Source: a virus. From it: a DNA stretch of 31,018 nt. Positions 3,868 through 30,329 of this stretch are shown piece by piece. The stretch lies in IMG/VR virus record IMGVR_UViG_3300018078_000004, positions 1 to 31,018 of that record; one strand, given 5' to 3'. The notes below the pieces were generated by a model. The model saw nothing but the letters and a program-made list of their open reading frames with translations. It did no database searches and was not told the origin of the DNA. How positions within the stretch are numbered: the stretch's first letter is position 1; the number at the start of each line of letters is the position of its first letter. Position numbers and translations under genes: made by a program.

Positions 3868-5105
3868 TCGCTCTGACCGCTCAGTCGTTCTTCTCGCGTT
3901 GTGGGCTGATAGCCCTGGAAGCTGTTGCCCTGGATGCTTATCTTGAGCATTCGGGACTTGACCATAATATCGAGTACTCGCATGATCGAATGAGCGGGTA
4001 CGCGCTCGCGCAAGAAGTGGACTACGCGATGTTCCCCGACTGGCTTATTTTCTTTGGAGTAGATCATCCACACATAGTTCCAGGCCTCTTCCATTGCGGC
4101 CGAGTCTCCTCCAGTCATCATTGACTTGAAGATGTCTGGCATGTACCGCTCGGCCTCGGTAAGCCAGTTTAAGGCCTCGCTGTAGTGTTCAATCCCGATA
4201 ACTCTGTCGCTCGAGTGGGATATGCTTGATATCATGCATAGTTTCAGCAGATGAGCGACTCGCCGAGAGTTATAGTACTGTAGCTTTTGATGGGCGGGCT
4301 CGGGCTTACAGCCGCCACTTACCCAGGCTTTGACTGCCTTGGCTGCGGGGGTGGTGAAGGCCATTTGTCCATATTCAGTGGCGATCGTCTTGAGATCGTG
4401 AAGGAGATCTCCTCGGAGACGACCGGTGAGGACGGTGATGTCAGCGTCACCGAAAGGGTCTTTAAGTACCCTATCACCTGAATAGATGAGTATCGTTCTG
4501 GAAACGAAGCCTTGATCCCAAGCCCCCGCAGGCATAACCTCGTTAAGATATGAAGGAGTACACGCTCCCAGTAGGTTGATCTGCGGATGAGCGATTTTGA
4601 TCCTAAGATCCTTCCCGCGTCTCTTCTGATCCAGCGTAAAGCCATCGTATATGTCCGTCAGGTTGTTCATGAGCGAGTTCTCCCAGGCTGGGATCAGCAC
4701 GCCAAGCTCACGAGAGATGACTGTAAGAGAGTTGAACTCCACGTAGGGGTCTGGCCCCGCGAGTAGGGTCAGTCGTCTGACTGACTCGTTCAGGGCGTCA
4801 ATAAGACTCGCCGAGGTCATATCCGAGGGGCCGACTTTTAGCTCTGGCACCTCCCGTAACATAGACTCTCCGAAATGGATCGCCTGTCCCTTGCCAATTC
4901 CGGGGGGTCCCACTAAGAGCACGTAGAGGCCCGGATATAGGTTTGAGCCCATAGTCCGAACCCAGAGTTTTCGTTCCATCGCGGCTGCTATGAAGAAGAT
5001 CGCCACCCACTTGCGGAATAACGGAGGGGAAGGTAGAATTTCCGTGTACTCTTGGTATGCGTCGATCCAGCTGCCGAGTCGCCTAGTTACGGGAGCGGCG
5101 CTCAT
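3864..5105 (-). CDS. P-loop ATPase, DUF3987-like replication protein
   Basis: A 413-residue protein with a clear Walker A motif, LLVGPPGIGKGQA (about residues 62-74), followed by an Asp/Glu-rich segment and an acidic VISRELGVL stretch likely to be the Walker B/sensor region. The arrangement (N-terminal WIDAYQEYTEILPSPPLFRKW, then Walker A, then helical C-terminus) resembles phage and prophage DUF3987/YfjI-type proteins linked to primases or helicases. Its place after the DNA polymerase suggests helicase-like or loader function in replication. The start ATG overlaps the polymerase end by 23 bases in another frame. Enzymatic activity is inferred, not shown. Confidence 0.65.
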   Translation of the reverse strand: MSAAPVTRRLGSWIDAYQEYTEILPSPPLFRKWVAIFFIAAAMERKLWVRTMGSNLYPGLYVLLVGPPGIGKGQAIHFGESMLREVPELKVGPSDMTSASLIDALNESVRRLTLLAGPDPYVEFNSLTVISRELGVLIPAWENSLMNNLTDIYDGFTLDQKRRGKDLRIKIAHPQINLLGACTPSYLNEVMPAGAWDQGFVSRTILIYSGDRVLKDPFGDADITVLTGRLRGDLLHDLKTIATEYGQMAFTTPAAKAVKAWVSGGCKPEPAHQKLQYYNSRRVAHLLKLCMISSISHSSDRVIGIEHYSEALNWLTEAERYMPDIFKSMMTGGDSAAMEEAWNYVWMIYSKENKPVGEHRVVHFLRERVPAHSIMRVLDIMVKSRMLKISIQGNSFQGYQPTTREERLSGQSD

Positions 5106-6570
5106 CTGGCCACTTTGAAAGTCCGCCGGGATTATCTTTTGTTGCCTTACTCCAGTTCCATCCCACTTGGACTTCTACGGGGACGACGAACTGTCTACCT
5201 CCCTCCAGTTCGATCGGAACCCGCATGGCCGAGAGTATCTGCGGCAAGATTTCATTCTCCCTCTCCTCTGAGTATTGCATCAACAGTGAGTCATGACCTT
5301 GTAACAGAAGTTGAACTGTGTTCAAGCGCCACACGTTCATCATAGCGTTGTTCATCTCGTCGGCTGTCATGGACTGCCCCATATGGGCTACAGCCTGTTT
5401 AAGGGTATCTCGTTCGTCGCGCTTACCAAAGAACCAGCGCTTGCGCCCGAGCGGTGTAACGAGGTTACCCGTCTCGATTAGCTGCGTTTGTATCCATGCG
5501 TGCAGTCGTGGGATCGCCGGAAAAGTCTTGAAATAAAGCGTCTGAAACTCTTTAATAACGTCTTGGTCGATCTTGGTGTGCTTCGACATCTCATAGGGGC
5601 TTCCCAGGTAATTCGTACCGTGGCCAAGCACCTTACACATATGGCGCAGTCCATAATGGCGGTAGTAGGGCTGTTCCGCGATCCTCCGATCCTCACTGAG
5701 TGAGTTAGTCCAGGGCAGATCGGGTCTTGACATTCTAGCGACCGTAGTGTGGAGATCACCCGACTCACAGGCATCCAGATATTTTCCATCTCTGAACACA
5801 TTCCAGCACAAAGCTCCTATGTTGCGGCTATCAGCCTGTTCAAGATCGACGTTAGCGAACTTCATCCCTGGGTCGGCAACGACTATTCTTCGTAATCGCT
5901 CCTCAATGTTCTGAAGATTTCCGCCTGTACCAAAGTCATTGAGGCTAGAAGAAAATCTACCTGTTGTTGTTCCGGCAATGTTATAACTCGTCCTGAGCCT
6001 GCCATCTGGATCAATTTTCGTTTCAAGGACACCAATCTTTTTTCCAAAGTCTCTAAGAGCGAGAATATGTCCAATAATTGGCTGTGCGATAAAGTGTATC
6101 TGTAGTCGCTCAAGTGCGTCACGGTTGACTGTTCGGGCGAGTTGCCCGGTAGCGTTTCGCTTTCTAATCTCCGGAAGCTTGAGAATATCATAGAGTAGAA
6201 TAGCGACAAGGGCATTCGATCGCCATGCTCGAGTTCTTCCCGAATTTCTGAAATCGGTATATCCGACTCCATCATGAACGATGTGATAGAGGTTCCGTTC
6301 GAGTCTCTCAGTATCACGTGTATAAGAGTCGATTGCCAGTCGTCGTTCTCGCTCATCTATCAATACTCCATGAAGGTTCATCTCCATAACCGGAGCCTGA
6401 AGCGACCGCGACAACGCGTAGGTACCGCCGGTTAGATTATCCAACTGCGGAAGCAGCGCCTCAAGGACTTCGAGGGTCACACAACAGTCGAGGCCATTAT
6501 AGATCCACAAGCGCTCAGTTTCGGACTTTGGGTCGCCGGGGCGCAGGGCGTCGGTGCGAGTGACTTTCAT
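5083..6570 (-). CDS. Family A DNA polymerase with only the last motif of the 3'-5' exonuclease
   Basis: A 495-residue PolA-type polymerase. Visible motifs: TTTGRFSS...NLQN (201-221), motif A VDLEQADSR with catalytic Asp242, motif B with Arg309, Lys313 and Tyr321, and motif C QGHDSLL with His426-Asp427. The position matching E. coli Phe762 is His317, which is unusual. The position matching Glu710 is Asp247. At the N-terminus, IYNGLDCCVTLE (Tyr24, Asp28) matches Exo III of a DEDDy proofreading domain. Exo I and Exo II are in the separate upstream protein at 7059-8090. The start is ATG 6570, not the open-frame ATG at 6603, because it overlaps the stop of the 38-residue membrane peptide (ATGA). 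The role is phage DNA synthesis. Confidence 0.9.
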   Translation of the reverse strand: MKVTRTDALRPGDPKSETERLWIYNGLDCCVTLEVLEALLPQLDNLTGGTYALSRSLQAPVMEMNLHGVLIDERERRLAIDSYTRDTERLERNLYHIVHDGVGYTDFRNSGRTRAWRSNALVAILLYDILKLPEIRKRNATGQLARTVNRDALERLQIHFIAQPIIGHILALRDFGKKIGVLETKIDPDGRLRTSYNIAGTTTGRFSSSLNDFGTGGNLQNIEERLRRIVVADPGMKFANVDLEQADSRNIGALCWNVFRDGKYLDACESGDLHTTVARMSRPDLPWTNSLSEDRRIAEQPYYRHYGLRHMCKVLGHGTNYLGSPYEMSKHTKIDQDVIKEFQTLYFKTFPAIPRLHAWIQTQLIETGNLVTPLGRKRWFFGKRDERDTLKQAVAHMGQSMTADEMNNAMMNVWRLNTVQLLLQGHDSLLMQYSEERENEILPQILSAMRVPIELEGGRQFVVPVEVQVGWNWSKATKDNPGGLSKWPDERRSRN

Positions 6571-6683
6571 TCGGCAACCATAACTATGGCTATGATCCAA
6601 CAAAGGATGAAAAATAGAACAGATACTGCGATCTGCCCTAGCAGAATAACGTCGAGCCAGTCATTTATCCAGGGCCGCTTCAT
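6567..6683 (-). CDS. 38-residue membrane peptide between exonuclease and polymerase genes
   Basis: A short gene with a polar start (MKRPWINDWLDV), one strongly hydrophobic helix (about residues 13-36) and a GTG-free coding frame ending in VAE. Its ATG overlaps the stop of the 38-residue gene upstream and its stop overlaps the polymerase ATG, both as ATGA. The double coupling is the main evidence that it is translated. No family is recognised. It sits in an insertion-like position inside what is normally one gene (exonuclease-polymerase), so it may have no replication role at all. Confidence 0.6.
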   Translation of the reverse strand: MKRPWINDWLDVILLGQIAVSVLFFILCWIIAIVMVAE

Positions 6684-6796
6684 TGCCACTCCAGCCACAG
6701 TGCCTCGCCCCATGTGATAGACATTGTGACTATGTCACAGCCAACGAGATATTCGGCGTAACAACTGGTATTGCAGTAGACTCGAAGGAGGATCAT
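6680..6796 (-). CDS. 38-residue peptide of unknown function
   Basis: The frame starts MILLRVYCNTSCYAEYLVG and ends in a Trp-rich stretch (ITWGEALWLEWQ). Three cysteines lie in the first half. Its ATG overlaps the TGA of the KTSC gene and its TGA overlaps the ATG of the next membrane peptide. Translation support is the coupling chain and the absence of any gap. I do not recognise it; the sequence is too short for fold inference. Confidence 0.5.
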   Translation of the reverse strand: MILLRVYCNTSCYAEYLVGCDIVTMSITWGEALWLEWQ

Positions 6797-7056
6797 CGGC
6801 GCACCTGAAAGTGACTGTTGAAGAACTCACCCTTCGACGGGGCTGCTACGAAAGCGTCGAAGAGTTCTCGATCGCCCTCATAGCTATAGCTGCCGCCACG
6901 AATGAACTCTACAGTGATAACGTTATCCGAGCGCCACCCGATCGTGCGAATGGCAGTGGACGAGACAGGGATAGTTATATCCTCGTGCTCTTCGTCATCG
7001 TCCTCTGTGAGGGCCTTTTTTAGAAGGCCGACCGCGATTAGTCGAGCTAGTGACAT
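6793..7056 (-). CDS. KTSC-domain protein
   Basis: An 87-residue protein whose C-terminal part (about 30-86) matches the KTSC pattern: SSTAIRTIGW, then VEFIRGGSYSYEG, then FVAAPSKGEFFNSHF. KTSC domains are small beta-rich modules common in phages and sometimes fused to nucleic-acid enzymes; their biochemical role is not settled. The N-terminus has a short hydrophobic start and an acidic run (EDDDEEHED). A strong AAGGAGG sits inside the last codons of the glycosylase/exonuclease gene just upstream. It is placed between the two halves of the proofreading domain, so a structural link to that enzyme is possible but unproven. Confidence 0.8.
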   Translation of the reverse strand: MSLARLIAVGLLKKALTEDDDEEHEDITIPVSSTAIRTIGWRSDNVITVEFIRGGSYSYEGDRELFDAFVAAPSKGEFFNSHFQVRR

Positions 7057-7058
7057 TG

Positions 7059-8090
7059 TCAGTCCTCCTTTTTGATAGTACCTTTGTGTTTAAGACGAAT
7101 ACCGAGCTTCCATGCGCTTTCATTTGTATATACTGATCCAAGATAGTCAAGCCCTTTTGGAGCTTCCGGCTGCAGAGCGTGGTGTAAAAGCATCGTGTCG
7201 TGGACAGCGTTCCTGACAGGAACCCCGTACGTCTTCCACAAGCGGGACATATCAAATATACCATTCTGGAACACCTTTGCTACAGGAGAGTCTAGCACCT
7301 TCCGCACCCAGGCCCAGGCGGCCATCTCGGCCTCGAGTGAGGGCCAATAGTTTCCGCCCGGCTTTCGTAGGTCCTCGAACGGCACTACGAGTGCTATGTC
7401 GATCGCGGGCGAAAAGCCTATGCAGGTTATTCGATCCCCTCTGGTTTCGATATCCACAGAGAGATAGGTAGCTCTTGCGATGAACTTTTCGGCGAACCAG
7501 TCGAGTTCTGAGAGGAGCGGTTCGGTATATATGGATCGCTGAGGGCGTCGTATCTCTGGGTATTCACTTTCGCGACGTGCTTTTTGTAGATCGAGGATAG
7601 TCACATGCCTAGACTCGTAGCTACCTTGGAGGATATAGGAGGGGTGGAATGTTGGGAGGCACTTTTTTCCTGCCAGAATGGAGGAACTTGCGACTGCCCC
7701 ACGAAGTTTCGATATTCTACCGTCACGTAGTATTGCCCAGGCGGCAGTTCCCCCGAGACAGACAATGACATTTGGATCAGCTTTAGTAAGTTCTGCGTAA
7801 AGTCTGTCGAGTTCAGGGAGAAATTCATCGCGGATGTACTTGCCAGATGATAGCGGCGGGAGCGCATGACGAACCTCCTTACGGGTTGCACATAGGTTCT
7901 CGATCTTATTAGTCGGGCGCGGCCGCAAGTTGAAGCAGTTCGTGAGAAAGCAATCGGCTCGGACGATCCCGGCCTCGGTCAACATAGAGTTCAACTGCCA
8001 GCCCGCAGGCCCGACGAATGGCATCCGTGCACGCTCCTCGTGCTCGCCCCAGGCCTCTCCGACGAGGGCTATTTTATACTTTGTTGACAT
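7059..8090 (-). CDS. Uracil-DNA glycosylase-like domain fused to the N-terminal part of a 3'-5' exonuclease
   Basis: This 343-residue protein has two parts. Residues 1-170 look like a family 4/5-type uracil-DNA glycosylase: VGEAWGEHEE (10-19), MPFVGPAG (23-30) and FHPSYIL (148-154). Residues about 195-343 look like a DEDDy exonuclease: Exo I YLSVDIET with Asp213/Glu215, Exo II AKVFQNGIFDM with Asp280, and then the HDTMLLHHAL...GLDYLGSVY segment that usually precedes Exo III. The protein stops before Exo III, which is found in the polymerase protein. A related arrangement, glycosylase plus polymerase, is known in SPO1-like phages. The start overlaps the upstream gene by 17 bases. Proofreading would need assembly with the polymerase. 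Confidence 0.8.
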   Translation of the reverse strand: MSTKYKIALVGEAWGEHEERARMPFVGPAGWQLNSMLTEAGIVRADCFLTNCFNLRPRPTNKIENLCATRKEVRHALPPLSSGKYIRDEFLPELDRLYAELTKADPNVIVCLGGTAAWAILRDGRISKLRGAVASSSILAGKKCLPTFHPSYILQGSYESRHVTILDLQKARRESEYPEIRRPQRSIYTEPLLSELDWFAEKFIARATYLSVDIETRGDRITCIGFSPAIDIALVVPFEDLRKPGGNYWPSLEAEMAAWAWVRKVLDSPVAKVFQNGIFDMSRLWKTYGVPVRNAVHDTMLLHHALQPEAPKGLDYLGSVYTNESAWKLGIRLKHKGTIKKED

Positions 8091-11433: not shown

Positions 11434-11751
11434 CTATGACCGAGGGTGATTATGGAAGTATCTTCTCATGTTCTCGGCCTGACTAACATTGAGAAGATTT
11501 AGAACTCTGTTATTAGACTTGTTCTCATCGAGATGATCTATAGTGATAGGCCACTTTCCGTGGATATAAAGCCAGACAAGAACATGAGCGTAGTAGCTGT
11601 GTCCATTTATCTTTAGATGAACATAGCCATCTTTTCTTTGGTGACCGGCTCTCATTCCATATATGACTCTTGATTTTGGCTGCTTCCAGTGAAAATGTCC
11701 GGTACAAGGATTGTACCGTAGCATTCTTCTGAGTCTAATCTGCGTAAGCAT
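11434..11751 (-). CDS. HNH homing endonuclease 1
   Basis: A 105-residue HNH protein with the usual small-phage layout: N-terminal LRYNPCTGHFHWKQP, central GYVHLKINGHSYYAHVLVWLY, then the HNH core ITIDHLDENKSNNRVLNLLNVSQAENM. Such enzymes nick or cut DNA and spread by homing. It is inserted between the Sak4-like gene and the HTH gene, and its stop lies within the Shine-Dalgarno of the next gene (TAGGAGTCAG). Codon composition is more A+T-rich than the neighbours, consistent with mobility. No intron is evident. Confidence 0.9.
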   Translation of the reverse strand: MLTQIRLRRMLRYNPCTGHFHWKQPKSRVIYGMRAGHQRKDGYVHLKINGHSYYAHVLVWLYIHGKWPITIDHLDENKSNNRVLNLLNVSQAENMRRYFHNHPRS

Positions 11752-11752
11752 T

Positions 11753-12547
11753 CTACGACCTCACTGTATCAAAAAATGTAGCTAGTCCCGTTTCGATAGG
11801 TAAAGTTGGAAGCATCTTGAAACTCGCAGGGTTCGCCAGGTCGATCATGGCAGTCGCCGCCGTTTGTATTTGGCGCTTGCCGCCCGGGCCGGTCTGCGCG
11901 AGTGCGACAGAATTGAAGTAAGTGGGTATCTGCGGGGAGAGAGCGGACCCCACAGCCGTCGGATATCCTTTTTTCGTCCCGTCTGGATTATCAACGTAGC
12001 GCACGTGGCTGATAACAATAACGTTTGTTCTGAATGTTTCAGATGTGAGTAGGGCGAGCACATTCTCAACAGCGTCTTGAGCATCTTTATAGACTGCGCG
12101 TACGTCATATTTACCATCCTTCGAGCGCGGGACCAGAGGCTCTCTGAACCGGAATGCAGCATCGGACATGAATGTCAGGGAGTCGACGACGAGGATCACC
12201 TCCTCGCCCCAGTTGGCCGGAATGCCCATATCCACTGTTTCGTATTTCCAGTGATCGAGCATTTTCAGCCCTTCGATAAAGGCCGTGGCGGTCCCATCCA
12301 CCACAGTTCCGATGGGGGTGGCCTTTAGCTTGTCGCGGAGCGTACGAAACTCGACGCGGTCAAGCAAAGTCGGGTTCTCTCGCTTGATGACCTGCGCGAG
12401 GGCGTCGAGCCCATTATCAAAATCGAGTATGCGAAGCTTGTATTTCTTCACAAGCGACGCAAGTCCGCCGGTCTTGCCGGACTTGGAGTCCCCGATCAAG
12501 AGGAGCTTCGTAAACTTACTCGACTGATGTTGCGTCAGGTTTGGCAT
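11753..12547 (-). CDS. Sak4-like RecA-fold ATPase (AAA_24 type)
   Basis: A 264-residue ATPase. Walker A is LLIGDSKSGKTGG (about 16-28), and Walker B is VILVVDSLTFM with Asp122. An acidic LDFDNGLDAL follows Walker A, as in phage AAA_24/Sak4 proteins. Sak4 proteins are RecA-like phage recombinases that act with an SSB to anneal or exchange single strands. The neighbours support this: a Cas4/RecB-like nuclease upstream and an ssDNA-binding-like protein downstream. The start overlaps the preceding gene by 32 bases. Confidence 0.85.
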   Translation of the reverse strand: MPNLTQHQSSKFTKLLLIGDSKSGKTGGLASLVKKYKLRILDFDNGLDALAQVIKRENPTLLDRVEFRTLRDKLKATPIGTVVDGTATAFIEGLKMLDHWKYETVDMGIPANWGEEVILVVDSLTFMSDAAFRFREPLVPRSKDGKYDVRAVYKDAQDAVENVLALLTSETFRTNVIVISHVRYVDNPDGTKKGYPTAVGSALSPQIPTYFNSVALAQTGPGGKRQIQTAATAMIDLANPASFKMLPTLPIETGLATFFDTVRS

Positions 12548-12816: not shown

Positions 12817-12981
12817 CTATACGGGGGCTCCCCGGCCGCAGCGCGGACAGTAAGCATATGGCCTGAGACTGCCATCGCTGAAAGGACAGTCCCTGTACTC
12901 GAGCGGAGGCGGCCCGAACAGCCAGCACAGCCAGCGCGGACAGTTGTACTGCAACAGTTTCTCGGGTGTCCACTTACTCAT
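12817..12981 (-). CDS. 54-residue Cys-containing protein
   Basis: The protein has five cysteines, including a CPRCG pair near the C-terminus, an NCPRWLC pair near the start and a single DCP. A zinc-ribbon-like fold is plausible. Its ATG at 12981 overlaps the stop of the nuclease gene (ATGA); an upstream ATG at 13002 would require extra overlap with that gene. No known family. It is probably co-expressed with the nuclease. Confidence 0.65.
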   Translation of the reverse strand: MSKWTPEKLLQYNCPRWLCWLFGPPPLEYRDCPFSDGSLRPYAYCPRCGRGAPV

Positions 12982-13928
12982 CTCGGCACCAGGGGGTTCC
13001 ATTCGCGCCGCTCAAAGCTACTTTCGAGGAACTTGCCCCTGACCATAGGGCTCTTCGAGCAGATACCCCTAAAGATACAGCCGCCATACTTATGGCAGGA
13101 CTTGTCATTCTGCGGCCAATAGCCCTTATCGACATAGGACTCGGCCTGACGGATGTGGATCTGTGTGTCCTTCATCCACTCGTCGATCTGATCGGCGGTC
13201 TTGAACACGAACGAGCGAACAAAACGGCTGAAGCCGACCGCGATCTGTGCAGCGTCCACGATCACGCCTTTGACAGGGGTGTGGAAGGCGACTTGCGAGG
13301 CCACGGTGTAGAAGGACATTTGATTGTCTGGTTCGTACTGCTCGAAATAGTAGGAGCCGAGCGTGCTCGTGGTGGTCTTACGGTCCATCACAAAGGGCTG
13401 TTCTTGAAAGTCTACAACGCGATCGAGATAACCGCACATAGCGTAGGGAGTATTGAAATTGTAGTTGAACCCGGCGTCGAATTGGAAGTGCAGTTCGATC
13501 ATAGGCTTACCAGAGTCAGAACTCATTCGGGTCTTGGCGGGATCGTCGCGGAACTTGTCCAGATACCAGACGACGGTGCGAACGAGAAATTCACGACACT
13601 TGAGCGAGGTTTTATCCTCAATGGACAGATCTTTACTCGCACGCCAGGGCTTTCCGTCGCGCCAAGTGCGCTCAAGAACGCGCCTGACTGTATGAAGCAT
13701 TGCGCCATCGTGATCCAAGCCACTAAAACGGCTGCGCTCATAGCCTTCCAATGCCTCGTGATAGAGGATACCGAATTCAAGGTGAACGGACTCACCGCGC
13801 CCGACCCAACCCTCGATCATATGATACTGGTACTTGCGGGGGCACTCTTTGAGCCAACCGAGGGACGTGGAGTCCCAAGCCCACTGGGCTCGTGTACCAT
13901 CTACGAATGGCGAAGGCCATTTTTCCAT
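12978..13928 (-). CDS. PD-(D/E)XK nuclease with Fe-S cysteines, Cas4/RecB-like
   Basis: A 316-residue exonuclease-like protein. Motifs: KECPRKYQY with Cys29, FGILYHEALEGY with His57, MCGYLDRVV with Asp169, VMDRKTTTS with Asp182/Lys184, and DNQMSFY with Gln203. Three C-terminal cysteines (278, 284, 290; SCHKYGGC and FRGIC) plus Cys29 could hold a 4Fe-4S cluster as in AddB/Cas4 enzymes, though the spacing C-x5-C-x5-C differs from the usual form. It likely resects DNA ends for recombination. GGAGTCAG precedes the ATG. No CRISPR genes are present, so a Cas role is not implied. Confidence 0.85.
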   Translation of the reverse strand: MEKWPSPFVDGTRAQWAWDSTSLGWLKECPRKYQYHMIEGWVGRGESVHLEFGILYHEALEGYERSRFSGLDHDGAMLHTVRRVLERTWRDGKPWRASKDLSIEDKTSLKCREFLVRTVVWYLDKFRDDPAKTRMSSDSGKPMIELHFQFDAGFNYNFNTPYAMCGYLDRVVDFQEQPFVMDRKTTTSTLGSYYFEQYEPDNQMSFYTVASQVAFHTPVKGVIVDAAQIAVGFSRFVRSFVFKTADQIDEWMKDTQIHIRQAESYVDKGYWPQNDKSCHKYGGCIFRGICSKSPMVRGKFLESSFERREWNPLVPR

Positions 13929-16033: not shown

Positions 16034-16372
16034 TTACCTCCATTGGTTGGTAAGAAACAGTGAGTAGTTAGCTTGTCTGCAGGCCTTGACATTCTGAGAG
16101 TGAGTTAGCTCTCGAAGGTTCTCTATTCTGTTGTCGCCTTTGTCTCCGTTGATGTGGTCTACCTCATACCCTTCTCTTGGCTCTCTCCCGTAGTAAAGAT
16201 ACCAGGCGAGTCGATGAGCCTGATATTGTCTCCCACCTATGGTAACACTGATGTAAACTCTATCTCCGGACCTTACTTTCTTCCCAACAGTTGTATGCTT
16301 CGTGAAGTATCCTGTTACTGGGTTATATGATAGAGTTTTTTGTAGCTCTTCCAGTGGAGGGTGTCTTTTCAT
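16034..16372 (-). CDS. HNH homing endonuclease 2
   Basis: A 112-residue HNH protein with LSYNPVTGYFTKH, QYQAHRLAWYLYYG and the HNH core YEVDHINGDKGDNRIENLRELTHSQNV. ATG 16372 is chosen because the promoter's -10 lies just upstream (16412-16417), which excludes the longer frame to 16441. AGGAG is present 10 bases before ATG. It sits between a strong promoter and the 15522 gene, and its last codons overlap that gene's GGAGG. It is probably a selfish homing gene using an existing promoter. Confidence 0.9.
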   Translation of the reverse strand: MKRHPPLEELQKTLSYNPVTGYFTKHTTVGKKVRSGDRVYISVTIGGRQYQAHRLAWYLYYGREPREGYEVDHINGDKGDNRIENLRELTHSQNVKACRQANYSLFLTNQWR

Positions 16373-16411
16373 TCGAGTCAGACTCCTACGGGTGTTCGAA
16401 CCATACGGGGG

Positions 16412-16441
16412 ATTATATGCATATTTCACTAGCCTTGTCAA
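16412..16441 (-). promoter_or_regulatory. Consensus sigma-70-type promoter (minus strand)
   Basis: Reading the minus strand, TTGACA (16436-16441) is separated by 18 bases from TATAAT (16412-16417). Both hexamers are perfect consensus. Transcription would begin near 16405 and run into the HNH gene at 16372 and then the 15522 gene. This is the strongest promoter match in the window. Confidence 0.85.
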
Positions 16442-23117: not shown

Positions 23118-23341
23118 GTGTTGCGCTTGCGCTGCAGTGTGGCATGGTGGAGTGTGGCCTGCGGGAGACTGTTGCAAAGCAATTATAGAAGGGGGAGGGG
23201 GCAAAAAACGAACTTTTCTTGCTGGGCGCTTCAACCCCGCTAGAAAAATCCCCTCCCTACAGCCATATCCGGGCCTCCGGCCCTGAGCCCTCGGGGGCCG
23301 GTTCATCCGCCAGTTCTGGTCCCCTCTGGGACCGATTTCAC

Positions 23342-24654: not shown

Positions 24655-26130
24655 GTGCCTGTCGCGCCCCGTAGCGCAGCTTGGAGTCCACAGCCGGGGC
24701 CTCAAACCGAGGCCATAATGGCTGATTGGTGCGATGAGCTGTTCTACGGCGGCGCGGCTGGAGGGGGAAAGAGTGATTTTCTGTTAGGTGATTTTCTGCA
24801 AGATGTACCCACCTACGATAAACGGTGGCAGGGGATATTGTTCCGTCGGACCTACAACGAGCTTGAGGACTTGATCCGCCGCGCGCGCGAGATCTACCCC
24901 GCGTCTGGCGCTGTTTGGCACGAACAGGCCAAGACTTGGACCTGGCCAAACGGCGCCAGTCTGCGTATGCGCTATGTTGAAAGGGACGCAGATGCCACAC
25001 GCTATCAGGGTCACCAATATACCTGGATCGGATGGGATGAGCTTACGCAGTGGCCCTCCGACTACGCATATCGCTTCCTCCGAGCGCGATTACGCAGCGC
25101 TCATGGAGTCCCTACAAAACGTATTCGGGCTGCGGCTAACCCCGGCGGAGTGGGCCATCACTGGGTCAAAGCTTATTTCGTCGATCCGCATCCAGGGGGC
25201 TACATTCCCATTGAGGACTCGATCGTCAAGTCCAAAAGGATGTTCGTTCCCGCTAAACTACGAGATAATCAGATCCTATTATCCGCCGATCCCACCTACG
25301 GAGATCGACTCCGCGGGCTTGCGTCCGACGCTATGGTGCGAGCGTGGCTCGAGGGCGACTGGACCGTGGTCGAGGGCGCCTATTTCGACTGTTGGCGCTA
25401 CGATTTACACGTTTTGGAGCCCTTTGACATCCCGCGGGAGTGGCCACGGTTCCGTTCGATGGACTGGGGCTCGTCCAGACCGTTTTCAGTCGGCTGGTGG
25501 GCTATCGTAACAGAGGACTTTTGGGCTCAGGGGCAGCGGACCGAGAAAAAGACTCGTTTGGTGCCTCGCGGCGCGCTTGTGCGGTGCCGAGAGTGGTACG
25601 GAATGACCTCTGCGTTCAACGTAGGGCTGAAATTGACCGCTGAGGGGGTCGCTGAGGGCATCAAAAAGCGCGAAAAAGAGGCAAAAGACCCTCAAATGCG
25701 ATATGCAGTGCTCGATCCTGCCTGTTTCAAGGAGGACGGCGGGCCGAGCATCGCTGAACGCATAAACAAGGTGCTTTTAGGTGCTCGCCTGAAGCCTTTT
25801 CACGCTGCGGAGAACGCTCGGGTCCCGCAGCGTGGCGCAATGGGGGGCTGGGATCAAATGCGGGCGCGCTTAGTTGGGCATGATGGTCTACCAATGATCT
25901 ACTGCCTCAGTACGCACGCAGCATCTATCCGAACGATCCCAGCCCTCCAGCACGACCCCGCTCGAATGGAGGACGTGAACACAGAGTCTGAAGATCACGC
26001 GGCGGATGAGTGGCGCTACGCCTGTATGTCGAGACCCTACGCCCCGGTCCCGGTCAAAGTTACTATGGCGAAGAAAATCGGTTACACTGCTAAGACCTCC
26101 AAGGCCGCGGGCGACTGGATGATCTACTGA
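24655..26130 (+). CDS. terL: Terminase large subunit
   Basis: A 491-residue packaging motor. Residues 11-19 give the SPQPGPQTE signature, then Walker A FYGGAAGGGKSD (about 30-41) and Walker B TWIGWDEL with Asp128/Glu129. The RNase H-like nuclease has RSMDWGSS (Asp270), YAVLDPACF (Asp354) and EDHAADEWRY (Asp447/Asp451). It powers DNA translocation into the procapsid and cuts concatemers, in the Terminase_6 style. GTG 24655 is used because the conserved QPGPQT stretch lies before the first in-frame ATG (24718). The Shine-Dalgarno is weak. Confidence 0.92.
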   Translation: MPVAPRSAAWSPQPGPQTEAIMADWCDELFYGGAAGGGKSDFLLGDFLQDVPTYDKRWQGILFRRTYNELEDLIRRAREIYPASGAVWHEQAKTWTWPNGASLRMRYVERDADATRYQGHQYTWIGWDELTQWPSDYAYRFLRARLRSAHGVPTKRIRAAANPGGVGHHWVKAYFVDPHPGGYIPIEDSIVKSKRMFVPAKLRDNQILLSADPTYGDRLRGLASDAMVRAWLEGDWTVVEGAYFDCWRYDLHVLEPFDIPREWPRFRSMDWGSSRPFSVGWWAIVTEDFWAQGQRTEKKTRLVPRGALVRCREWYGMTSAFNVGLKLTAEGVAEGIKKREKEAKDPQMRYAVLDPACFKEDGGPSIAERINKVLLGARLKPFHAAENARVPQRGAMGGWDQMRARLVGHDGLPMIYCLSTHAASIRTIPALQHDPARMEDVNTESEDHAADEWRYACMSRPYAPVPVKVTMAKKIGYTAKTSKAAGDWMIY

Positions 26131-29100
26131 TGGCGCATAAGATCGAGGATCGCATCAGAGATACTACCACGTCAAGTGGTGTAGGTCCCCTTACGGTCAC
26201 CGGAACTGCTCCAACTCGGTATCGAGCCTTCAGTGCTGTTTGCGCTCCGGCAGATACTATCTGGATCGCCACTGTTCACCAGACCGCGAACGAGTGGGAA
26301 GTAGCGCTTGCCACCTCCGACGGGGGAACAGGGCTAACTCGGACGACCATTCTCAGTTCATCCAACGGCGGTGCGGCAGTCAGTTTCTCGGCGGGGACTA
26401 AAGATGTTTTCGCAGTTCATCCAGCGGCCGAAATCTATCCGTTTGTCTTCACAGACGTAGTCAAGGGCCTCGTTCCGGCCTCTGGCGGCGGCAGCACGAA
26501 CTTTCTTCGCGCCGATGGCACTTGGAATACCCCCGGCGGGAGCAGCACTAACGCATTTGGAACTATCGTTGTCAGCGGTCAGAGTGACGTGGTCGCTGAG
26601 ACAGCTCCGGATACTTTGACCCTTGTCGCCGGAACTAACATAACTATTACCACCGATGCCGGAACAGATACGATCACTATTAACGCCTCTGGCGGTGCCT
26701 CTGCCGGTGGAGCCGATACCCAAATCCAGTTTAATGATGGCGGCGCGTTCGGGGCTGATGCGGATTTCACTTGGAACAAGACCACCAACGCGCTGTTCGT
26801 GAACGGGACTATTGAACTCGGTGCCGCGAGCGATACTACCCTCGCGCGGGTAAGTGCCGGAGTGGTGTCGATCGAGGGCGTTACGATCCTTACCACGGCC
26901 ACTGGTCAACCGCTCGATGCCGATCTGACCTCGTGGGCGTCGGTCACTAGGGCGGCCGGATTTGATGCCTTCGCGGCCACACCCTCCAGCGCTAATCTCG
27001 ACACTTTAGTGACAGACGATACCGGCTCTGGCGCGCTGGTCTTTGCCAACACACCTACGCTCGTATCGCCCCTTCTGGGAACTCCAACATCTGGCGTGCT
27101 GACCAACTGTACGGGCCTTCCGAGTATCGTGGTGGCGAACGAAGGCACTGATACAACGTGTTTTATAGCCTTCTTCACTGGCGCCACGGGCGAACTCGGA
27201 CCCAAGACCAACGCGAACCTGACCTACAACTCCAATACTGGTGCCTTCTCCATAGGCACGGCTGCGGCCTTTACGGCCGGAACTATCGAACTAGGCGCCG
27301 CTTCAGATACGACGCTGGCACGCGTTTCTGCGGGCGTAGTGTCCATCGAAGGCGTGACCATTCTAACCACCGCAACGGGGCAACCCCTGGATGCGGATTT
27401 AACTTCTTGGGCTGGAGTTACTCGGGCGGCTGGCTTCGATACCTTCGCCACCACCCCGTCTAGTGCCAATCTTATCACGTTAGTCACCGACGAAACCGGA
27501 ACTGGGGCGTTGGTGTTTGCCAATACTCCATCCCTGATTACGCCAAAGATCGCTGATAGTGCTGGTGGGCAGTTTTATAATTTCGCAGTCAGTAATCTCA
27601 CGGCTGATCGAATAGTGACGCTGCCATTGCTTACGGCTGGTGACACCTTTGTATTTGAGGCCCATGCGCAGACGCTCACAAATAAAACCATTGCTCTGGG
27701 CAGTAACACAGTCTCCGGCTCGGTGGCCGAGTTCAATGCCGCCCTGACTGCAGCGGACTTCTACACCACAGGCGGCACCGACGTATCCCTGGCCGATGGT
27801 GGTACTGGGGCCTCGCTGGTTGACCCTAACCTCGACCGTTTTCTCTTCTGGGACGACAGCGCGGGTACCATCAAGTTCGCCATCCTGGCTGACCTCATCA
27901 CGGAAGCCGCCCCCGCAGCGGGAGACTTCATCCTGGTGCAGCGCGCGGAGGATGACCTTGTTAAAGTTAACTGGTCCTCGCTCCCTGTCGGTGGGGTGCC
28001 AACCCTCATCACGGTGGCGAACGAGGCCACCGATACTACGTGCTTCCCGGCGTTCTTCACCGCTGCGACCGGAGACCTCGGGCCGAAGACCAATACGAAC
28101 CTCACCTACAATTCTAACACTGGGGCCTTCTCGATTGGCACTGCGGCAGCCCTCACTGCTGGCACGATTGAACTCGGTGCTGCCTCTGATACAACTCTGG
28201 CCCGCTCTGGCGCTGGTGATGTGACCATCGAAGGTAACACGGTCTATCGCGTAGGCGGCACCGATGTTGCTTTGGCCGACGGCGGAACCGGTGCATCACT
28301 GACAGATCCTAATCTTGATCGTGTCTTGATGTGGGATGACAGTGCAGCGACTATTAAGTTTGCTGACCTCGCTTCACTAACTACTGAAGGTGCTCCTGCT
28401 GCGGGAGACTTTTTGTTGGTGCAGCGAGCTGAGGATGACATTGTCAAAGTGAATTGGTCTTCTCTTCCTGGGGTGGGCGGCGGCATCTCTAACGTGGTCG
28501 AGGACAGCACGCCCGAGTTGGGCGGCGACCTGGAGACCAACAACTTCGACATCAAGTTCGAACAATACAGCGCCGACGCGGTAGACGCGGAAGCAATCTT
28601 CCAGAAGTCCCGCAACGCGGCTATCGGATCGCACACCATCGTCCAGGACGGCGATGACCTGGGTACGCTCCGCTTCCAAGGCTCCAACGGCACCACCTTC
28701 GACACCGCCGCTTTAATCCTTGCTGAAGTGGATGCCACGCCTGGTGCCTCCGCTGATATGCCGGGCAGGCTTAGCTTCTGGACTACACCAGATGCTTCGG
28801 CAACGCCACTAGAGCGGATGCGGATTTCAAACGCTGGGGGCGTGGCCATCGGAGGCGGCGGGGCGGGGGTGTTTGGAACCATATTCACAGTCCAGGGCAA
28901 CAGCACACTCCCTGTTGTGGTGGACTTCGGCCATTGGGAGGCGAGCAACGTCGGTCCTACCCAGCGGTTTATAAAGAGCCGCAGTGCCTCAATTGCTGGC
29001 GTTACTATCGTCAACGATGGTGACACTCTCGGGGTTATGCACTTCTACGGTGCAGATGGTACGAGTTATTCACTCGGCGCTCAGCTTGGCGTTTTCGTGG

Positions 29101-30329
29101 ACGGCACGCCCGGTGTAGGCGATATGCCTTCACGCTTCGTGTTCTCTACGTCCCCAGATGGGAGTGGAACGCCCAGCGAGCGGATGCGGATCGACAGCGC
29201 TGGAAAAGTTGTTATATCTCAGCTTGGTTCTGGTGCTATAACCGGGCACGCAAACACCCCGCAAATTCAGTTTCATTCCTCTAGCATAGCTAATAATACA
29301 TTAATGCTTGCCATGTGGGAAGCTGGTGTTAATGGACAGCGATTGGAGTTTGCGAAGTCCCGCCACACTACGTTTGGCAGTCACACGGCTCTGAACAGTG
29401 GGGACACTATTGGAGAGATTGTCTTTTCGGGGTCGGACGGAGTAAACTTTGAGAAGTTCGCAAAGATCGAATGTCTTGTAGAGAGTACTGTAGCTAGCAA
29501 CGACTGTCCGGGAGGACTGTATTTCTACACTACGCCGGATGGAAGTGCGACGACCACCGAACGTCTGAGGATCAACAACGCTGGTGTTGTAATCGTCGGC
29601 GGGGCTGCTTCGGTTGCCTCAGTTGACCAAACGGGCGCTGCTATTACCCCCGCTTTGCAAGTTCTGGGTACCAATGCTAGTACCTCGGCTATGGAGGTAC
29701 TGCGCTTTGAAAGCGGTAACAACGCCGCGCGGTTGATACTCGGACGTAGCGCCAATGCTACGATTGGCAGCCACACTGCTGTTGCAAACAGCGAGGCAAC
29801 GGGAGCGATCATATTCGTCGGCTCGGACGGCACTGACTTTGAACCATTGGCGGCGATCTTCGCCTTCACCGATGGCACTGTCGGGGCCGGTGATATGCCA
29901 GGATCGCTTGTGTTTGCTACTACACTAGACGGAGCGGAGGCCACCACCACCCGGCTTACTATCAAGAACGATGGGCGTATCGTAGCAGTCAACGGCGCGG
30001 TCCCGCACTTCTGGTGCTACTGGACAGCCAACAGTACCACCATTCTGGCCAGCTACAACATGACCTCCATTGCCGACACCGCAGTCGGTGACGCCGATGG
30101 GACTATTGGAGTGGACTTCTCGTCGGCCAACTGGGCCGGGCACGTAGACACCAGCGACTCCACCGCCGCTGGTTGGGACACGGACAGTATTCAAAGCTCG
30201 GGCTTCAACGCCAAGGCTGCTGGTACCTTTGGTGTTCTGTGTGGAAATATGATCGACGGCACTACGGCCGTAGGTGGTCTAGTGGATCCTCAACAATGGA
30301 GCGTGACAGGATTGGGGGTTTCAGCATAA
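26130..30329 (+). CDS. Very large repetitive tail fibre-like protein (1399 residues)
   Basis: ATG shares a base with the terminase stop (TGATG). The sequence is Gly/Ser/Thr/Ala-rich and beta-repeat rich. Two kinds of repeats are visible. The first has ELGAASDTTLAR, ADGGTGASL and AAPAAGDF-type blocks (about residues 225-780). The second, C-terminal half, has at least four modules that run KSR...IGSH..., GSDGT, DMPG and ERMRI..AG, as in trimeric tail-fibre shafts. No peptidase S74 chaperone motif was seen at the end. It is likely a long side or tail fibre for adsorption. The first repeats keep their protein sequence while codons differ heavily. Confidence 0.8.
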   Translation: MAHKIEDRIRDTTTSSGVGPLTVTGTAPTRYRAFSAVCAPADTIWIATVHQTANEWEVALATSDGGTGLTRTTILSSSNGGAAVSFSAGTKDVFAVHPAAEIYPFVFTDVVKGLVPASGGGSTNFLRADGTWNTPGGSSTNAFGTIVVSGQSDVVAETAPDTLTLVAGTNITITTDAGTDTITINASGGASAGGADTQIQFNDGGAFGADADFTWNKTTNALFVNGTIELGAASDTTLARVSAGVVSIEGVTILTTATGQPLDADLTSWASVTRAAGFDAFAATPSSANLDTLVTDDTGSGALVFANTPTLVSPLLGTPTSGVLTNCTGLPSIVVANEGTDTTCFIAFFTGATGELGPKTNANLTYNSNTGAFSIGTAAAFTAGTIELGAASDTTLARVSAGVVSIEGVTILTTATGQPLDADLTSWAGVTRAAGFDTFATTPSSANLITLVTDETGTGALVFANTPSLITPKIADSAGGQFYNFAVSNLTADRIVTLPLLTAGDTFVFEAHAQTLTNKTIALGSNTVSGSVAEFNAALTAADFYTTGGTDVSLADGGTGASLVDPNLDRFLFWDDSAGTIKFAILADLITEAAPAAGDFILVQRAEDDLVKVNWSSLPVGGVPTLITVANEATDTTCFPAFFTAATGDLGPKTNTNLTYNSNTGAFSIGTAAALTAGTIELGAASDTTLARSGAGDVTIEGNTVYRVGGTDVALADGGTGASLTDPNLDRVLMWDDSAATIKFADLASLTTEGAPAAGDFLLVQRAEDDIVKVNWSSLPGVGGGISNVVEDSTPELGGDLETNNFDIKFEQYSADAVDAEAIFQKSRNAAIGSHTIVQDGDDLGTLRFQGSNGTTFDTAALILAEVDATPGASADMPGRLSFWTTPDASATPLERMRISNAGGVAIGGGGAGVFGTIFTVQGNSTLPVVVDFGHWEASNVGPTQRFIKSRSASIAGVTIVNDGDTLGVMHFYGADGTSYSLGAQLGVFVDGTPGVGDMPSRFVFSTSPDGSGTPSERMRIDSAGKVVISQLGSGAITGHANTPQIQFHSSSIANNTLMLAMWEAGVNGQRLEFAKSRHTTFGSHTALNSGDTIGEIVFSGSDGVNFEKFAKIECLVESTVASNDCPGGLYFYTTPDGSATTTERLRINNAGVVIVGGAASVASVDQTGAAITPALQVLGTNASTSAMEVLRFESGNNAARLILGRSANATIGSHTAVANSEATGAIIFVGSDGTDFEPLAAIFAFTDGTVGAGDMPGSLVFATTLDGAEATTTRLTIKNDGRIVAVNGAVPHFWCYWTANSTTILASYNMTSIADTAVGDADGTIGVDFSSANWAGHVDTSDSTAAGWDTDSIQSSGFNAKAAGTFGVLCGNMIDGTTAVGGLVDPQQWSVTGLGVSA
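26805..27413 (+). repeat. Codon-scrambled direct protein repeat inside the large fibre
   Basis: The 45-codon block at 26805-26939 and its copy at 27279-27413 encode identical residues (GTIELGAASD to LTSWA), but 33 of 45 codons differ. The offset is 474 bases (158 residues). Later portions of the unit also repeat with some residue changes. Related copies of TYNSNTGAFSIGTAA and GGTDV-x-LADGGTGASL occur further downstream at about 27220/28100 and 27770/28255, also with synonymous divergence. Confidence 0.85.

Follow-up and report, generated by a model that had tools for sequence, protein, structure and literature searches.

Why should the repeats of a single phage gene be almost the same in protein and yet be written in different codons? 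The question is raised by a tail-fibre gene in the window, by which we mean the whole 31,018-nucleotide stretch of viral DNA analyzed here (IMG/VR record IMGVR_UViG_3300018078_000004, positions 1 to 31,018). An initial annotation, made from the letters alone, had read these repeats as the product either of purifying selection on the protein combined with saturated silent change or of selection to avoid DNA repeats that would recombine. The first of these readings is upheld by our analysis, and the second finds no support. Most probably, the repeats are very old modules of a tail-fibre shaft whose protein is under purifying selection and whose silent sites have long been randomized; near identity in protein with codons matching at chance would then follow from the age of the copies of a protein-conserved module. 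Nothing suggests purposeful codon rewriting.

The repeat-bearing open reading frame (ORF) lies immediately 3' of the terminase large subunit gene and therefore among the virion structural genes (Table 1). By tblastn, it matches annotated cyanophage tail fibres, and its PHROG tail-fibre calls (phrog_9942 and phrog_18345) rest mostly on the C-terminal half. It resembles modular phage tail-fibre shafts (phrog_9942, phrog_18345, and phrog_6002) in its position next to terminase, its PHROG tail-fibre matches, and a module order and number that vary. The repeat modules themselves differ from these shafts in having neither a Pfam nor an NCBIfam model (both searched) and in giving weak PHROG matches.

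Table 1. Features of the window referred to in the text (coordinates are those of the whole stretch).
Feature	Coordinates	Strand	Details
Sak4-like single-strand annealing protein	11753..12547	-	phrog_124, E 5.8e-12
Exonuclease, probably part of one recombination system with the Sak4-like protein	12978..13928	-	phrog_1218, E 9.9e-10
Terminase large subunit (yardstick gene)	24655..26130	+	PHROG and Pfam terminase matches; dS 0.72 against relative L003
Tail-fibre gene, 1399 aa, repeat bearing	26130..30329	+	open frame; phrog_9942, E 2.8e-80; phrog_18345, E 2.5e-78
Repeat A, copy 1 (A1), 84 aa	26805..27056	+	78/84 residues identical to copy 2; 55/78 codons differ
Repeat B, copy 1 (B1), 74 aa	27132..27353	+	64/74 residues identical to copy 2; 39/64 codons differ
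Repeat A, copy 2 (A2), 84 aa	27279..27530	+	closest protein relative of the core is one of the L003 copies, 92%
Single stretch between A2 and C1	27531..27770	+	part of a 150-aa stretch found twice in L003
Repeat C, copy 1 (C1), 72 aa	27771..27986	+	GC3 0.72; 61/72 residues identical to copy 2
Repeat B, copy 2 (B2)	28014..28235	+	pairs with B1
Repeat C, copy 2 (C2)	28254..28469	+	GC3 0.40, composition island; 38/61 codons differ from copy 1
Weaker C-terminal repeat, copy 1	28746..28838	+	21/31 residues identical to copy 2; 14/21 codons differ
Weaker C-terminal repeat, copy 2	29493..29585	+	partner of 28746..28838

The repeats of pairs A, B, and C occupy the middle of the fibre in the order A1, B1 overlapping A2, C1, B2, and C2. 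They are interspersed, with a single-copy stretch between A2 and C1, and do not form a head-to-tail array. The last 25 residues of B1 overlap A2, and the last 25 residues of B2 (28161-28235) match A1 as well. Identity is 93% in protein and 73% in nucleotides for pair A, 86% and 74% for pair B, and 85% and 71% for pair C; the longest exact DNA run is 8 nt in pair A and 8 to 11 nt inside any of the pairs. The protein likeness of paired copies far exceeds chance, among repeats that were detected through protein similarity, a procedure that favors slow-evolving ones. In the fibre of the relative L003, the 150-residue stretch lies at residues 524-673 and 1005-1154. The description given in the initial annotation is accurate: pair A begins with 45 residues that are all identical, 33 of them written in different codons, both of the Ser codon-family switches it listed (AGC/TCA and AGT/TCT) are present in pair A, and the repeats at about 27770 and 28255 (pair C) show the same pattern.

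For comparison with chance, codons were drawn independently for each identical residue from the fibre gene's own usage. Codons were shared at 23/78 identical residues in pair A, 25/64 in pair B, and 23/61 in pair C, against expectations of 24.4, 22.1, and 21.9; in statistical terms, codon choice in one copy of a pair is independent of that in its partner. The comparison of synonymous and nonsynonymous divergence that had been proposed for the repeats agrees with this. By codon maximum likelihood, the 95% lower bound on dS is 2.5 to 2.7 for single pairs and 4.2 for pairs A to C pooled, with a dN of about 0.08 for repeat pairs and a pooled dN/dS of at most 0.02, which bears out purifying selection on the protein with saturated silent sites. 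Recent duplication or whole-repeat gene conversion was considered as a source of the copies and rejected, given codon matches at chance, longest exact runs of 8 to 11 nt, and the same saturation between phages; the earlier exclusion of recent gene conversion thus holds for whole repeats.

The same pattern recurs well beyond this gene. Two scans of IMG/VR yielded 118 loci, and one pass over sequenced genomes of bacteria and archaea yielded a single locus (L120, in a Devosia metagenome-assembled genome). Roughly two dozen fibres in the IMG/VR loci have internal repeats that are 66 to 97% identical in protein, with a DNA identity of at most 0.80. The 22 fibre ORFs that bear modules, named phage records included, contain 56 repeat pairs, with a median protein identity of 0.87 and a maximum DNA identity of 0.83; repeats of high nucleotide identity in related phages, the observation that the initial annotation had named as telling against its reading, did not appear among them. 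Codon memory, scaled so that 0 is random and 1 is identical, had a median of 0.07 over these pairs and exceeded 0.5 in none.

A profile of the A module retrieved 57 copies of a 50-residue core in 39 loci. Among the 48 alignable copies, whose GC3 spans 0.12 to 0.98, the same-codon fraction was 0.362 within genes (0.353 expected) and 0.328 between phages (0.311 expected), and the between-phage fraction stayed at the random level, 0.361 (0.339 expected), when only pairs sharing 85% or more of their residues were counted. An invariant Ser is encoded, among the 35 closest copies, by TCN 25 times and by AGY 10 times; thus, a switch of Ser codon family is routine in the module family. Data from isolates are few, and Mycobacterium phages with a related motif were left out because they have too few repeats. 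In cultured P-RSP2, the same codon was used at 30/54 residues (30.5 expected), and codon matches were random or slightly above in cultured S-CBP1, S-CBP3, PfAn1, and Octadecabacter virus DB2. Likeness in protein with randomness in codons is therefore general in one widespread, unmodeled class of phage fibre modules. In the literature searched, no account of pan-phage codon saturation in phage fibre modules was found.

Selection against DNA repeats, which would have pushed silent sites apart and so spared the modules from recombinational deletion, is a highly improbable explanation. Within the window, codon matches lie at the random level, so that the copies are as far apart at silent sites as random draws would make them, and no farther. 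The shortage of long DNA matches that this explanation had been taken to predict was not seen in comparison with synonymous codon shuffles of the fibre gene, where repeated 12-mers numbered 11 against 5.7 ± 4.7 and the longest exact repeat was 14 against 14.2. Pooled module fibres match slightly above random (0.414 versus 0.375), their longest runs slightly exceed expectation (13.8 versus 11.6), and copies in separate phages, where avoidance cannot act, are saturated just as much. Avoidance would fit the 0/56 module-fibre pairs with a codon memory above 0.5, set beside other repeat proteins of which some retain memory, as well as the window phage's possession of its own recombination proteins and the lack of repeated 12-mers in relative L032 (10.2 ± 7.5 expected; P 0.04). 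As a force beyond saturation, it is already largely refuted. In L032 (3711-5759), near-tandem 44-residue repeats (ELNILDGATLTTTELNYVDGVTSAIQTQLDGK) are 94% identical in protein and have a longest exact repeat of 11, which makes this locus the best single candidate for genuine repeat avoidance.

Between the window and L003, dS is about 1.7 for the fibre N terminus and about 2 for the gene after the fibre, compared with the terminase value in Table 1, while the modules show a codon memory of about 0 to 0.17. On these values, the modules date back at least to the time when the two genomes separated. This comparison was also considered as proof of module exchange, a reading that is not required, since the next gene is itself at a dS of about 2. 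The low terminase dS beside saturated modules could likewise be taken to favor a fast, active rewriting of fibre codons by some mutational mechanism, which we regard as barely credible. The divergence of that same 3' gene weighs against it, and the window fibre is found unchanged in two further contigs (L001 and L002). Silent rates in close relatives argue against it as well: fibre dS was 0.00 for L003/L004, 0.03 for L081/L082 (neighboring genes, 0.01 to 0.11), 0.65 for L020/L021 (0.25 to 0.74), and 1.08 for L077/L078, somewhat above its neighbors (0.42 to 0.72). Fibre silent sites in close relatives are not markedly faster than those of neighboring genes, and rapid rewriting was rejected on this ground.

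Great age must still be reconciled with so little protein change. In two close pairs, dN/dS of the fibre ORF was 0.13 and 0.26, well over the ceiling of 0.02 for the repeats; thus, a plateau with few free positions and small residue sets is needed rather than uniform constraint. Among the 35 closest copies of the A core, a single residue makes up 90% or more of the column at 28/50 positions. Roughly half of the positions in the module would tolerate essentially one residue and the others would vary within a small set, so that protein divergence could level off while silent divergence went on to saturation. Old copies that ancient duplication, module shuffling between phages, or both may have brought into one gene would then appear identical in protein yet rewritten in codons. 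Tail-fibre shafts are elongated, usually trimeric, and beta-rich, and repeated modules in the shaft probably determine how long the multimeric fibre is and what periodicity it has. AlphaFold2, run on the A module as a single chain, gave a model with a mean pLDDT of 61 (low confidence), and PDB searches retrieved no convincing solved relative. As the fold is not a confident one, we infer the structural constraint on the modules rather than read it from a model.

How the copies came to share one gene is a separate matter. They may have been imported independently from different phages bearing the same module, without ever having been duplicated in the window gene, an account that we hold to be possible but short of probable. 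Composition provides evidence for it. GC3 steps sharply within 28254-28649, from its value in C2 to 0.87 directly downstream, and C2 is also abnormal beside C1; at the same residues, C2 exceeds C1 in A/T-ending codons by 26:5 (sign test, P=0.0002), and the GC3 minimum falls at C2 (permutation P=0.012). These figures suggest that C2 was imported from another sequence background. Furthermore, the A2 core is closer in protein to one of the L003 copies than to A1 (88%), with codons at chance, and phages across the whole GC3 range given above bear the same module. Against independent import, GC3 does not differ between the copies of pair A or pair B (P 0.3 and 0.86), and no DNA-identical donor was found. 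In addition, 3/5 within-gene core pairs, from three phages only, reach or exceed the 97th percentile of protein identity among between-phage pairs, a hint that copies inside one gene may be more coherent in protein while their codons are equally random. Same-gene copies are no closer in DNA than copies from other genomes, so the pattern expected of concerted evolution is not seen.

The window phage encodes proteins that could carry out such shuffling (Table 1). Sak4 is a member of the Rad51-like group, and the Sak4-like annealing protein is a plausible agent of module shuffling. Phage recombinases recombine DNA that is about 20% diverged (PMC2327257, PMC3945230), and homeologous recombination by lambda Red or Rad52-like enzymes provides a route by which modules sharing about 70 to 78% DNA identity could be shuffled (PMC2327257, PMC3945230). 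The measured cases concern Rad52-like enzymes and DNA about 22% diverged or less, whereas the enzyme of the window phage is Sak4-like and no exchange was observed.

None of the 56 module-fibre pairs was a young, DNA-identical duplicate within a gene, even though relatives differ in how many modules they have and in what order. Such duplicates may have been lost in assembly or deleted by recombination, or the copies may have been imported already diverged. The whole pattern might accordingly reflect survival, in that fresh DNA-identical duplicates are removed by recombination, or drop out of short-read assemblies, so that what persists or is observed is only copies whose DNA had diverged beforehand; the missing young pairs fit this account, which we nevertheless judge unlikely. 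A control set of other repeat proteins was mixed, some being fibre-like with few motif hits, and its clear members are L122 (7366-9520), L056, L071, and L127. The first three of these are repeat proteins with partial codon identity that were assembled in like data, which argues against survival, as does the retention of a 39-nt exact run and partial codon identity in L010; intermediates therefore exist. In the L010 fibre repeats (4353-7550), the same codon is used at 24/35 residues (14.6 expected), and these repeats are possibly younger or patch-converted.

A related proposal, which we put forward tentatively and consider rather unlikely, is that phages draw their fibre modules from a common protein vocabulary, which is turned over only by exchange of DNA-diverged copies: recombination would remove identical duplicates, and selection on the fibre, not homogenization of DNA, would keep the copies alike. 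Under such a vocabulary, with DNA-identical duplicates removed by the phages' recombination, only repeats already diverged at silent sites would, in effect, be able to persist. That young duplicates are missing raises a testable question, namely, how repeats can be added to and dropped from modular fibres without being deleted by phage recombinases.

Great age under purifying selection, our preferred explanation, has its nearest precedent in polyubiquitin, where the repeats of one gene are nearly identical in protein and silently different under purifying selection on the unit. In the account of Nei et al. (2000), as relayed in PMC10457151, these protein-identical repeats with many silent differences evolve by birth and death under purifying selection, a view disputed by later work favoring concerted evolution (see PMC10457151). 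Polyubiquitin differs in that its repeats are head to tail and are usually closer in DNA within a species than between species (PMC10457151). The window modules, in contrast, are interspersed, they share codons as often as chance predicts, whether the copies come from one phage or from two, and they bear no trace of homogenization at the DNA level. The pattern in the window is thus ordinary molecular evolution in a widespread, poorly modeled fibre module, and what looks like deliberate recoding is explained by ordinary means. Searches for repeats or homologs at the DNA level are poorly suited to such modules, and protein profiles are well suited.

Some further observations concern the surroundings of the repeats. 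Over its first ~100 residues (26130-26430), the fibre has relatives, probably prophage-like, at 36 to 45% identity in records of plasmids or secondary replicons from Burkholderia, Caenibius, and Planctopirus. Apart from a localized patch of ~73 bases (23268-23340) with 28 differences, ~9.2 kb of the sister contig L001, the fibre included, match the window exactly; the patch is either hypervariable or exchanged. Finally, HNH endonuclease ORFs at 11434-11751 and 16034-16441, on the minus strand, both match phrog_99 and are possibly homing genes.
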